In this document: piece after piece, positions 5,879 through 31,703 of the stretch
How the letters are laid out: every line of letters starts with the position of its first letter
Position numbering within the stretch: position 1 is the stretch's first letter
The notes under the pieces: model-generated
What the model was told of the DNA's origin: nothing
Databases searched by the model: none
The model's input: only the letters and a program-made list of their open reading frames with translations
Assembly: GCA_020831635.1 (NCBI GenBank)
Contig: JAFIGC010000031.1
Span: 1-44,911, forward strand
DNA length: 44,911 nucleotides
Direction of reading: 5' to 3'
DNA from: Verrucomicrobiota bacterium
GTDB taxonomy: Bacteria; Verrucomicrobiota; Kiritimatiellia; SS1-B-03-39; UBA6053
Made by a program: the position numbers and the translations under genes

Positions 5879-6042
5879 GCCAAGGGAAAGATTTTCAGGA
5901 AAAGGCTTCAGGGGTATTCTGGTTTGAGCAGATCATGTTTCTTTGACGGAAGAAATTTCAACCCTGCAAAATCCGCGCCCACACGCGGGTAGAAAAAGGG
6001 AACAACCACCGTGCCGTTAAGGTTGAATCTTTGAACCAGGGT

Positions 6043-6192
6043 TCAAAGTGGGTGCCAAGCGCGTGGGATCTGAAGTCCCCTCGCAAGGGGCGTGTCATCA
6101 ACCACGATGTTTACAGCTTCGGCTCCCGTGTGTTTTAGAAAGGCCAAAGAGATCACCTGATCACGAACACGGCAGAAGTTCCGAACATAAGT
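6043..6192 (-). pseudogene. possible gene remnant in the spacer between PpiD and Gre genes
   Basis: This frame is open from a TAG at 6193-6195 to a TGA at 6043-6045 and gives 49 residues with protein-like composition (for example VISLAFLKHTGAEAVNIVVD and a tail GLQIPRAWHPL). There is no ATG. GTG at 6150 is the only plausible start and has no ribosome site. It looks like the C-terminal end of a longer lost gene. I do not recognise the family. The rest of the 464-bp spacer 5802-6265 holds the Gre promoter candidate and a short CCCCT/AGGGG hairpin, and nothing else that I can see. Confidence 0.3.
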
Positions 6193-28362: not shown

Positions 28363-28405
28363 GGGGGACGTGACCGAAATCGACGCCCCCGTCCCCGTGG
28401 TTTAG
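28363..28405 (+). pseudogene. displaced original 3' end of the GH78-like gene, with right direct repeat
   Basis: 28363-28383 repeats 26449-26469 exactly over 21 bp. Read in the GH78 frame it gives DVTEIDAPVPVV and a TAG at 28403-28405. The intact gene has DVTEIDSPVPVV followed by RGLNNWSD. The codons differ mainly at silent positions, so this is a homologous but diverged end, not a fresh duplication. The TAG overlaps the leuA stop codon (28402-28404), suggesting that the GH78-like gene originally abutted leuA here. Confidence 0.8.
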
Positions 28406-29967
28406 GGCAGGGGATGCTCTTCGTTGGCGGTTTTGCCGGCGATGTAGCGGTTGATGCAGTTCAGGTAGGCCTTGGCGGCAGCTTCGACGATGTCGGTGCT
28501 GGAGGCCTTCCCGGTCACCAGGCCGTGGTCGTCGAAACGAACCGTCACCGTCACCTCGCCCTGGGCGTCCTTGCCGGTGGTGATGGATTGCAGGGCGAAA
28601 TCCACCAGCGTGCCGGGCACTTGGGTGATGCGGTCGATGGTTTTCAGGGTGGCGTCCACGGGTCCGTCCCCGCAGGCGGCGTCCTCAGAAATGACACCCT
28701 CTTTTTCCAAGCGCACCGTGGCCGTGGGCACGGTGACGTTTCCGGTGGAGACGTGCAGGTAGTTCAACACAAAGGTGCCGGGCGGTTTTTCCATGATGTG
28801 CTGCTGCACGATGGCCACCAGATCATCATCGTAGACCTGTTTCTTTTTGTCGGCCAAATCGATGAAGGCATTGTACGCGCCCTCCAATTTCTCGCCGGTC
28901 AACTTAAAGCCCAGGTCGTGCATGTGTTCGCGGAACGCGTGGCGTCCGGAATGTTTGCCCAACACCAGCTCGGTGCCGCTCAGGATTCCCACGTCCTCGG
29001 GGTTCATGATTTCGTAGGTGGTGCGCTCCTTCAACATGCCGTCCTGATGAATGCCGGACTCATGCGCAAACGCGTTCGCGCCCACGATGGCCTTGTTGCG
29101 CTGCACGTGCAATCCGGTCAACTGGCTCACCAGACGACTGGTCCGGAATATTTCCTTGGTTTCCACCTTGGTGTACAGATCGCCAAACGCATCCTTGCGG
29201 GTGCGCAGCGCCATCACGAACTCCTCCAGCGAGCAGTTGCCCGCGCGTTCGCCGATGCCGTTCATGGTGCATTCCACCCCGCGGGCGCCGTTTCGGACCG
29301 CCTCCAAGGAGTTGGCCACCGCCAGTCCCAAGTCGTTGTGACAGTGCACGTGGATCACGGCCTGGTCGATATTCGGCACGTTTTCCTTCAGATAGCGGAT
29401 GCAGCGTCCGAATTCCTCCGGCACCGCATAGCCCACCGTATCGGGAATGTTCACCGTCGTCGCCCCGGCATCAATCACCGCTTCCACCACCTCGGCCAGA
29501 AAATCCAACTCCGTGCGGGAGGCGTCCTCCGGACTGAACTGCACGTCTTCAACATAGGTCTTGGCCTTTTTGACCCCGGCCACGGCGGCCTTGATGATTT
29601 CCTCTTTGGCCTTGCGCAGTTTGAACTGGCGGTGAATGGCCGAAGTGGCCAAAAAAACGTGGATGCGCCCGCGTTTGCCCGCCGGGGCCACCGCTTCGCC
29701 CGCCGCCTCGATATCCCGGTCCACGCAACGGGCCAGACCCGCGATGCGGGGCCCTTTGATAGTGCGGGCGATTTCCTGGACGGCGGCGAAATCTCCCGGG
29801 GACGCGATGGGAAAGCCCGCTTCGATGATGTCCACGTTCAGGCGGGCCAAGGCGCGGGCCACCTGCAGTTTCTCCTGCAGGCCCATGCTGGCGCCGGGGC
29901 ACTGTTCCCCGTCGCGCAGGGTGGTATCAAAGATCAAAACCTGGTCTTGTTTCTTTTTGCTGCTCAT
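28402..29967 (-). CDS. leuA: 2-isopropylmalate synthase
   Basis: The protein has 521 residues, the normal length. It condenses acetyl-CoA with 2-oxoisovalerate in the first committed step of leucine synthesis. The N-terminal FDTTLRDGEQCPGASM motif, HVHCHNDLG (metal-binding HxH) and GIGERAGNCSLEE are all present. The C-terminal LeuA dimer/regulatory domain (about 390-521) is intact, so leucine feedback inhibition is expected. The start is ATG 29967 (MSSKKKQD); longer in-frame extensions cross the attenuator and are not used. It is preceded by a leucine attenuator and transcribed alone. Confidence 0.97.
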   Translation of the reverse strand: MSSKKKQDQVLIFDTTLRDGEQCPGASMGLQEKLQVARALARLNVDIIEAGFPIASPGDFAAVQEIARTIKGPRIAGLARCVDRDIEAAGEAVAPAGKRGRIHVFLATSAIHRQFKLRKAKEEIIKAAVAGVKKAKTYVEDVQFSPEDASRTELDFLAEVVEAVIDAGATTVNIPDTVGYAVPEEFGRCIRYLKENVPNIDQAVIHVHCHNDLGLAVANSLEAVRNGARGVECTMNGIGERAGNCSLEEFVMALRTRKDAFGDLYTKVETKEIFRTSRLVSQLTGLHVQRNKAIVGANAFAHESGIHQDGMLKERTTYEIMNPEDVGILSGTELVLGKHSGRHAFREHMHDLGFKLTGEKLEGAYNAFIDLADKKKQVYDDDLVAIVQQHIMEKPPGTFVLNYLHVSTGNVTVPTATVRLEKEGVISEDAACGDGPVDATLKTIDRITQVPGTLVDFALQSITTGKDAQGEVTVTVRFDDHGLVTGKASSTDIVEAAAKAYLNCINRYIAGKTANEEHPLP

Positions 29968-30030
29968 GATGTACTCTCTGGATGTTACTTTCTGTTTTGG
30001 GAGGGTCCGCCACGCGCCGGGAAGGGGATA

Positions 30031-30060
30031 CAAAAAACCCGCCGGGCCGCGGCGGGTGTT
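30031..30060 (-). terminator. leucine attenuator terminator
   Basis: On the minus strand CACCCGCCG and CGGCGGGT pair over a CGGCC loop and are followed by six T. It lies between the leader peptide stop and the leuA start, so it terminates transcription before leuA when the leader is translated without stalling. Confidence 0.85.
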
Positions 30061-30085
30061 TTACGAAAATTGGGGTTCAGGTCAA

Positions 30086-30160
30086 TTACACACGCACACG
30101 GGATCGTCCTTCAAGAAGAAGGAGAAGAAGCGCACGTAGGTTGAGGATCTGATGGATCAT
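30086..30160 (-). CDS. leuL: leuA leader peptide
   Basis: The 24-codon frame runs ATG 30160 to TAA 30086-30088. It holds eight leucine codons, six of them consecutive (residues 11-16, CTT/CTC), plus Ile and Val codons. This is the hallmark of a leucine attenuation leader. The ribosome stalls here when charged tRNA-Leu is short, which disrupts the downstream terminator (30031-30060) and lets leuA be transcribed. The ATG falls exactly where the predicted promoter would place +1, so the leader mRNA may be leaderless. Confidence 0.85.
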   Translation of the reverse strand: MIHQILNLRALLLLLLEGRSRVRV

Positions 30161-30166
30161 GGGTTA

Positions 30167-30194
30167 AGTATAAGTGGATGATGGGAGCTGTCAA
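30167..30194 (-). promoter_or_regulatory. leuA promoter
   Basis: On the minus strand TTGACA (30189-30194, perfect) and TATACT (30167-30172, five of six) are 16 bp apart. The hexamer ends six bases before the ATG of the leader peptide. Confidence 0.7.
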
Positions 30195-30232
30195 CCCCGG
30201 ATGTAGACAAAATGATCAAAAAAGGTACTGAA

Positions 30233-30320
30233 CTTTGAGGGCATTTGGGGGGACGGGAGCGCCAATCTCCGCATTGGCAAGGGGCGAAGGGGGCGATTTC
30301 GGGCGGGAATGCCCTCAAAG
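30233..30320. repeat. inverted-repeat element containing dispersed repeat copy B
   Basis: Perfect 13-bp terminal arms CTTTGAGGGCATT (30233-30245) and AATGCCCTCAAAG (30308-30320) enclose a G-rich core. The core's complement (30256-30305) matches the 12269-12326 repeat, including the GCCAAT...ATTGGC-type hairpin. It lies between the MFS gene end and the leuA promoter. Confidence 0.75.
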
Positions 30321-30341
30321 TGCGGGACCCGGAAGGCATGA

Positions 30342-31703
30342 TCACTTTTCCCGTTTCCAGCCGCTGTAGAGTCCCACGGGATAGCGCAGGGCCCGAAACG
30401 GCCAGACCAACATCAGATCCGCAATCCAGGGATCGGAGCGTTTGGGCTTGTCCGGAGCAATGCGCCAGGCCCAGAACGCCATCAGCACCCGCATGACCAG
30501 GCTGAAGAGAAACACCATCTGATACCCGTTGAGGTGCAGGAATCCGGTGGCCACCAATCCCCCTCCGGCAAAGCTCACATACCGTCCCCCGAGAATGGCC
30601 GACAGCCCGCCAAACAAGCCGCAGAAGCCAATCATGGCCGCCACGAACATGGGGCGATGATTTTCAGGGGAAGCCTGGAACATCAGGCCGTTGTGCGCCA
30701 CCCCAAACCCGGCGTTCCACATGCCGTCGAAAAACAGAATCGGCAACAGAATGGGGAAAGCGTTGGCGGGGGTCACCAGCAGAAACGCGGCCGCAATCAG
30801 GGATTTGAAGATGAAACAAATGCGGACCAGAAACACGCAGCCGCGGCGTTGGGCCACCTTTCCCCAACCGCGAGCGGAGAGGGCGGTACCCACCCCCTGC
30901 ACGCACCAGAGCAGGGTCGCCTCCCACACCGTCATGTGCAGCCCCACAAACAAGTAAAAACCCATCAGGGCCGCCGCGCAGGAGGAAATCGCGCTCCAGG
31001 ACCCGAAAAAAGCCACCAGTTTTCGATAACGGGCATCCAGCAACGGTTCGAAAAGAATCCGGATCGGATGCGCGGGCGGCTGGCGGGGAAAGGCCGGTTC
31101 GTGGACCTTGGCAAAGAGGGCGATATCCACCACTCCGGCCAGGACGCTGAAACAGCCCACCGTCACCACCAGCGGCATGAGCGCAAATTGGTCCGACCAA
31201 CTCAGGGACATGATCAGCAAATAGCTCAGCACCCAGGTGGCCGAACTCCAGGTTTGCCGCACGCCCCAGTAGCGATTCAGCATCCGCCGGGGAATCAAAT
31301 CCCCCATCCAGGAATACCACAGGGGCGAAGCCATGTGATTCAGCACGTTGCCGCCGAAAAGAAACGCCAGCATCCAGGCCACCCCGGTCGCATTCCGCAG
31401 CGAGGGAAACAGCGGCGGAATCAGCATTACCGGCAGGTATAACAGCCGACCAAGGATCATGCAGAACATGAACGCCGGTTTGCGGCGGGTCAGCCGACGC
31501 GACAGCAACGCCCCCACGAACTGCATGCTCAGCGCCAGCATCGGAATGCCCGCGTACAGCCCGATTTGCGTCGGAGTCGCCCCCAGATTTTCCAGAAATT
31601 TGGTAATGAGCGGAGAGGAGACCCCGGTGTTGTACACCATGTACAAACAACCGCTCAAGGTAATCAGTCGCAAGGAGTGGTGGAGGTCGCGTGAAGAGGG
31701 CAT
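30342..31703 (-). CDS. MFS transporter
   Basis: The protein has 453 residues with about 12 hydrophobic segments. The MFS character shows in the helix 2-3 loop (FVGALLSRRLTRRKPAFMFCMILGR), with the basic cluster typical of motif A, and in a long central cytoplasmic loop (residues about 205-225). The substrate is unknown. In polysaccharide-degrading relatives, such permeases often take up sugars or oligosaccharides, but nothing here proves it. The ATG at 31703 lacks a clear ribosome site. Monocistronic; a palindrome array lies upstream. Confidence 0.85.
   Translation of the reverse strand: MPSSRDLHHSLRLITLSGCLYMVYNTGVSSPLITKFLENLGATPTQIGLYAGIPMLALSMQFVGALLSRRLTRRKPAFMFCMILGRLLYLPVMLIPPLFPSLRNATGVAWMLAFLFGGNVLNHMASPLWYSWMGDLIPRRMLNRYWGVRQTWSSATWVLSYLLIMSLSWSDQFALMPLVVTVGCFSVLAGVVDIALFAKVHEPAFPRQPPAHPIRILFEPLLDARYRKLVAFFGSWSAISSCAAALMGFYLFVGLHMTVWEATLLWCVQGVGTALSARGWGKVAQRRGCVFLVRICFIFKSLIAAAFLLVTPANAFPILLPILFFDGMWNAGFGVAHNGLMFQASPENHRPMFVAAMIGFCGLFGGLSAILGGRYVSFAGGGLVATGFLHLNGYQMVFLFSLVMRVLMAFWAWRIAPDKPKRSDPWIADLMLVWPFRALRYPVGLYSGWKREK

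Follow-up and report, generated by a model that had tools for sequence, protein, structure and literature searches.

In the attenuators of the enterobacterial leu and trp operons, the leaders have a 5' UTR and a ribosome binding site. Leaderless polycysteine attenuators are reportedly found in mycobacteria, as described by Canestrari et al. in 2020. Attenuation by leader peptides was for a long time known mainly from Proteobacteria and Actinobacteria (PMC2965389); a sequence-only reading of the DNA studied here had called leucine attenuation best known from these two groups. In Streptomyces lividans, leaderless leader peptides include leuL1 before leuA, leuL2 before leuS, trpL1, ilvL and others; LeuL1 is without a typical intrinsic terminator, and LeuL2 has a hairpin and a U run downstream (PMC8079986). 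Actinobacterial leuA carries a LEU element, with no clear terminator (PMC1262725). Leaderless polycysteine leaders of mycobacteria are cited in PMC9031893, and the leader peptide of the ilvBNC attenuator of Corynebacterium glutamicum is described as made with no ribosome binding site (Morbach et al. 2000, as given in PMC4046766). Genes predicted to be leaderless are commonest in Actinobacteria and Deinococcus-Thermus (PMC3160421).

Here we describe a putative leucine attenuator of leuA on a window of 44,911 nt (the whole stretch of DNA analysed) from a member of the Kiritimatiellia. Like LeuL1 of S. lividans, it has a short Leu-rich peptide before leuA, reported there and predicted here to be leaderless; unlike LeuL1, it has a terminator with a matching antiterminator arm, and its host belongs to the Kiritimatiellia, not the Actinobacteria. 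It resembles the mycobacterial polycysteine attenuators in that a short ORF, predicted here to be leaderless, carries a run of the amino acid that is sensed, which in those actinobacterial hosts is cysteine. Like the ilvBNC attenuator, it involves a leader peptide for a branched-chain amino acid, but gene, peptide and phylum differ. Unlike the enterobacterial leu and trp attenuators, the Kiritimatiellia leuA leader matches no Rfam leader family: none scored above its gathering score in the window, the leader region or 12 related loci. The sequence-only reading had called a leaderless leader peptide unusual; it is less so than that, for Actinobacteria have documented examples, among them a leucine leader ahead of leuA (PMC8079986). 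Leaderless leader peptides are thus an already known kind, and what is added here is a leuA case across much of a class for which we found no earlier report.

The leader locus upstream of leuA

The gene under predicted regulation, leuA (28402..29967, minus strand, as are all elements of the locus), encodes 2-isopropylmalate synthase according to NCBIfam equivalogs (NF002086, 777 bits against a cut-off of 532; TIGR00973, 747 bits against 599). Upstream of it lies a leader ORF of 24 codons (30086..30160), MIHQILNLRALLLLLLEGRSRVRV followed by a stop codon, which has counterparts in relatives. Its eight Leu residues occupy codons 6, 8 and 11-16, so that codons for the end product of the pathway stand before one of its biosynthetic genes, as in ribosome-mediated attenuators; the run of six, L11-L16 (30113..30130), is the predicted stall site. 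The leader ATG is the earliest possible ATG, GTG or TTG of its frame because an in-frame TAA lies six bases 5' of it. The promoter consists of a -35 box TTGACA (30189..30194), with TTGAC[AGT] at the equivalent spot in relatives, and a -10 box TATACT (30167..30172), separated by a spacer of 16 nt; only TAACCC (30166-30161) lies between the -10 box and the leader ATG. The sequence-only reading had proposed a leader of 24 codons, eight of them for Leu and six of these consecutive, a TTGACA-16-TATACT promoter ending six bases before the leader ATG and a GC-rich terminator ahead of leuA. Leader and promoter are exact in the sequence, and the terminator was found at 30057-30032.

The upstream neighbour is a gene for an MFS transporter (PF07690; 30342-31703, minus strand). 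An interspersed repeat (30218-30345) fills nearly the whole gap between this gene and the leu promoter; it has 45 other matching places in the same genome at 77-94% identity, some of them close together on contigs C16, C84 and C262, and contains a 22-nt inverted repeat (30224-30245 with 30308-30329, 86% complementary). Elsewhere in the window, a 6S RNA was found at 5999-6181 on the minus strand (RF00013, 71.4 bits).

Recurrence of the layout and the predicted leaderless start

The genome (308 contigs, 96.5% complete) has Kiritimatiellota/Verrucomicrobia MAGs and strains B12222 and B1221 as its closest named relatives. We surveyed 288 genomes of one class, inferred to be Kiritimatiellia, of which 190 had a leuA match, giving 110 distinct upstream sequences. 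In 62 of these, a promoter-like site was followed at a distance of 5-11 nt (6-10 nt in practice) by the start of a short ORF containing Leu, and 55 of the 62 also had a clear terminator; these came from 19 of the 40 sampled families and from two loci lacking a family label. No leader of the leuA type was present in the region fetched from the other 21 families. The sequence-only reading had suggested aligning related leuA upstream regions; with this done, the layout recurs in relatives despite diverged sequence and is found in 10 of 10 loci of the own family.

Distance and Leu count had been among the grounds on which the 62 leaders were selected, and the distance spread of these leaders is not independent of that choice, so we redid the count ignoring both. 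Among 87 de-replicated upstream regions, 54 had a strong top promoter, with Leu content playing no part, and 39 of the 54 had their first ATG or GTG 6-10 nt past the -10 box; shuffling the downstream sequence gave a fraction of 0.18, for the wider range of 5-11 nt. The ORFs of these 39 regions were 21% Leu, as against 11% in the other 15.

Since six bases separate the -10 box from the ATG, transcription would usually be expected to begin on the A of the ATG (30160), a prediction that draws on this spacing and on a genome-wide peak of -10-to-ATG distances at 6 nt. The distance is 6 nt in the window and 6-10 nt in relatives; the 7-10 nt of other families means that a 5' UTR of 0-4 nt is possible there. 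It could be that leucine attenuation is real and the leader sits on an ordinary leadered transcript from a promoter farther upstream, in which case the box beside the ATG would be a coincidence or a secondary start, and the several families at 7-10 nt would suit such an arrangement. We consider it unlikely: the juxtaposed box, with 11 of 12 consensus bases, is the sole sigma-70-type promoter match in 29900-30500 (shuffled sequence gave 0.2 on average), the -10-to-start distance is kept across families whose sequences have diverged, and an SD-like motif precedes just 2 of 31 representative leaders, compared with 20 of 31 leuA starts.

A start at or beside the leader ATG also agrees with the rest of the genome, for which our statements on leaderless promoters derive from pattern searches. 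The pattern TTGAC N17-19 TANNNT N6-9 ATG was matched 88 times, and its reversed form 9 times. With the distance left free after TTGACA-N15-18-TANNNT, the first ATG peaked at 6 nt (18 of 69 promoters) and fell at 6-9 nt in 34 of 69, with about 1 per position at 10-32 nt; a complete relative (G008) had the same 6-nt peak in few cases (6 of 27). Most ORFs from promoter-juxtaposed ATGs were gene-length and, by eye, included antitoxin-like, ArsR-like and other proteins. Leaderless starts look common in this genome. The leuA leader was the only recognised amino-acid leader among 70 ORFs following promoter-ATG matches, and no leader peptides were seen in the inspected sequence upstream of ilvB, trpE and ilvD. 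The kept distance of 6-10 nt and the genome-wide signature support by computation the earlier prediction that +1 falls on the leader ATG of a leaderless mRNA, and the scarcity of SD-like motifs supports its claim of a leader without a ribosome site.

Promoters of the leaderless type, with the -10 box 6-9 nt before an ATG, often preceded small antitoxin-like ORFs by eye (for example L199-L228 and L249-L288). One ORF, roughly 88 aa long (MLVPKSSYF...GGYFVHVTSRTV), recurred after near-identical promoter-ATG sequences at L210, L215 and sites on contigs C138, C208 and C289. It resembles, we presume, REP-associated transposases; a 70-aa stretch of it had no Pfam match.

Outside the class, some Planctomycetota loci have, by eye, a similar layout: L082 reads TTGACA-17-TATCAT-8-ATG, L068 has its start at 7 nt, L069 at 7 nt from an internal Met and L047 at 6 nt with a weaker -35 box, and the ORF end matches the terminator arm in L082, L068 and L069. 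No convincing leuA leader was present in 17 of the 20 loci examined from other classes of the phylum. In the remaining three, L245-L247 (family f52), a convincing Leu/Ile-rich ORF stands before leuA in a different layout. In these f52 loci, a terminator-like hairpin ends a few nt before the ATG of the Leu/Ile-rich ORF.

Leucine codons, terminator and antiterminator arm

Among 31 representatives, Leu made up a fraction of 0.195 of leader codons in the own frame versus 0.059 and 0.052 in the other frames. Codon choice differed between leader and leuA: all eight Leu codons of the window leader are CTT (5), CTC (2) or CTA (1), whereas leuA, taking the ORF as given, uses CTG and TTG only (39 of 39; Fisher 3e-9 versus the leader). 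Across 25 loci, CTT and CTA accounted for 76 of 167 Leu codons in leaders versus 42 of 964 in leuA, a comparison in which a p-value overstates the independent evidence because the loci are related. The contrast fits selection for leader codons at which ribosomes would easily stall while leuA remains translatable. By eye, a CTTAGC-type motif recurs where the Leu run ends in many of the leaders, from several families (for example L106, L111 and L114); it may be a pause or structure element.

The terminator is ACCCGCCG-CGGCC-CGGCGGGT followed by a T run (30057-30032), with 8 pairs, 7 of them G-C, and clear intrinsic terminators were present in 55-58 of the 62 leaders. Four segments can be assigned. 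Segment 1 (30130..30138) is predicted by the minimum-energy fold to pair with segment 2 in a protector hairpin 1:2. Segment 2 (30087..30099), with the core TGTGCGTGTGTA, is the antiterminator arm over the last codons and the stop, placed by duplex analysis, partner swaps and the fold model. Segment 3 (30050..30062), the terminator 5' arm, is a partner of either segment 2 or segment 4, by duplex analysis, RNAalifold consensus and sequence. Segment 4 (30032..30044) comprises the terminator 3' arm CGGCGGG and the T run, by RNAalifold consensus and sequence. Nine own-family leaders gave an RNAalifold consensus in which the terminator was accompanied by a small CCUUC/GAAGG hairpin spanning the Leu codons; covariation was low.

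At its 3' end, the leader ORF is complementary to the terminator 5' arm, and the sequences used differ between families, as in GCGGTGGG with CCCACCGC, CGGCGGGC with GCCCGCCG and CCCGGC.GGCGT with GCCTGCCGGG. Single-duplex z-scores against mononucleotide shuffles were weak (mean -1.7), and we therefore compared swapped partners. The own 2:3 pairing of the 31 representatives averaged -16.25 kcal/mol versus -13.55 kcal/mol for swapped partners, and none of 5,000 permutations was as low (permutation sd 0.44), in a test that only partly removes kinship among the representatives. The window's own 2:3 duplex is short and mismatched (-9.1 kcal/mol, z -0.4), and its support is comparative. Within the own family, the alignment by eye of L025 revealed a segment 3 that differs (CAAGTCCCGCC) and a segment 2 changed to match (GGCGTGTGCTTG).

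These features bear on a second reading, in which the ORF is the gene of a small Leu-rich membrane protein with its own terminator and has no part in regulating leuA. The window peptide does have a hydrophobic core of six Leu, but over the representatives Leu amounts to 20%, Ile, Val and Phe together to about 14%, and both Arg and Gly occur often; the peptide sequence apart from Leu is not conserved, the ORF end complements a terminator arm, and the Leu codons are the ones that leuA avoids. We regard such a gene as very improbable. Equally remote, in our estimate, is a leuA leader that acts without terminator switching, in the manner of the actinobacterial LEU element, or a T-box or riboswitch. 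Actinobacterial leuA leaders without a typical terminator give the first of these a precedent (PMC1262725, PMC8079986), but the window and most relatives have an intrinsic terminator; as to the T-box or riboswitch, no Rfam family reached its gathering score in the region, and weak matches were at chance level.

For the attenuator reading, we used a simple fold model in which the ribosome masks 13 nt counted from the A site. Segment 3 was sequestered by upstream RNA with a mean of 0.73 when the ribosome stood at the Leu codons versus 0.23 when it stood at the stop codon, and the Leu-stalled value was the higher in 31 of 31 representatives; for the window, the values were 0.73 and 0.03. Because a longer free RNA pairs more by itself, the free part of the RNA was shuffled as a control: sequestration was 0.69 observed versus 0.48 shuffled, and higher in 29 of 31 representatives. 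In this model, a ribosome stalled at Leu would free the antiterminator arm, and a ribosome at the stop codon would cover segment 2.

The proposed switch and its meaning

We think it likely that leuA is controlled here by a ribosome-mediated leucine attenuator, with its leader peptide translated from a leaderless or few-nt-leadered mRNA. RNA polymerase would start at or beside the leader AUG, and a ribosome would load onto the 5' end of the mRNA. With sufficient charged tRNA-Leu, this ribosome would reach the stop codon and mask segment 2, leaving segment 3 to pair with segment 4, and transcription would stop before leuA. When leucine is scarce, the ribosome would stall within the Leu run and leave segment 2 free to pair with segment 3, so that the terminator would be blocked and leuA transcribed. 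Sequence and comparison supply the promoter-ATG juxtaposition, the Leu-rich frame, the terminator, the 2:3 complementarity and the codon contrast of this scheme; its exact start site, ribosome loading, leucine response and read-through are predictions. The leucine attenuation put forward in the sequence-only reading gains computational support from the in-frame-only Leu enrichment, the family-wise match of segments 2 and 3 and the stall/stop geometry.

The data suggest a switch conserved across the class and unreported for the group in the literature searched. In the open-licence literature, which makes for weak evidence, no leaderless transcriptome or start-site study for Verrucomicrobiota was found, and what was found for Kiritimatiellia concerns SD usage. 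It is conceivable, at somewhat less than even chances in our judgement, that leaderless leucine attenuation is old and widely kept in the class, possibly also in some Planctomycetota, and that the hosts use leaderless initiation for many genes.

The locus would represent a class-wide case of leader-peptide attenuation outside Proteobacteria and Actinobacteria, and its terminator-based, probably leaderless design differs from that of the leaderless leuA leader in Actinobacteria, which lacks a terminator. The results further suggest that leaderless initiation is frequent in the group. If the scheme is true, initiating translation at the very 5' end would allow the first ribosome to load the moment the RNA emerges from the polymerase, and such early loading would hold ribosome and polymerase in step during their short race. 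The class may offer many natural variants for studying how a ribosome that loads at the 5' end keeps pace with RNA polymerase.
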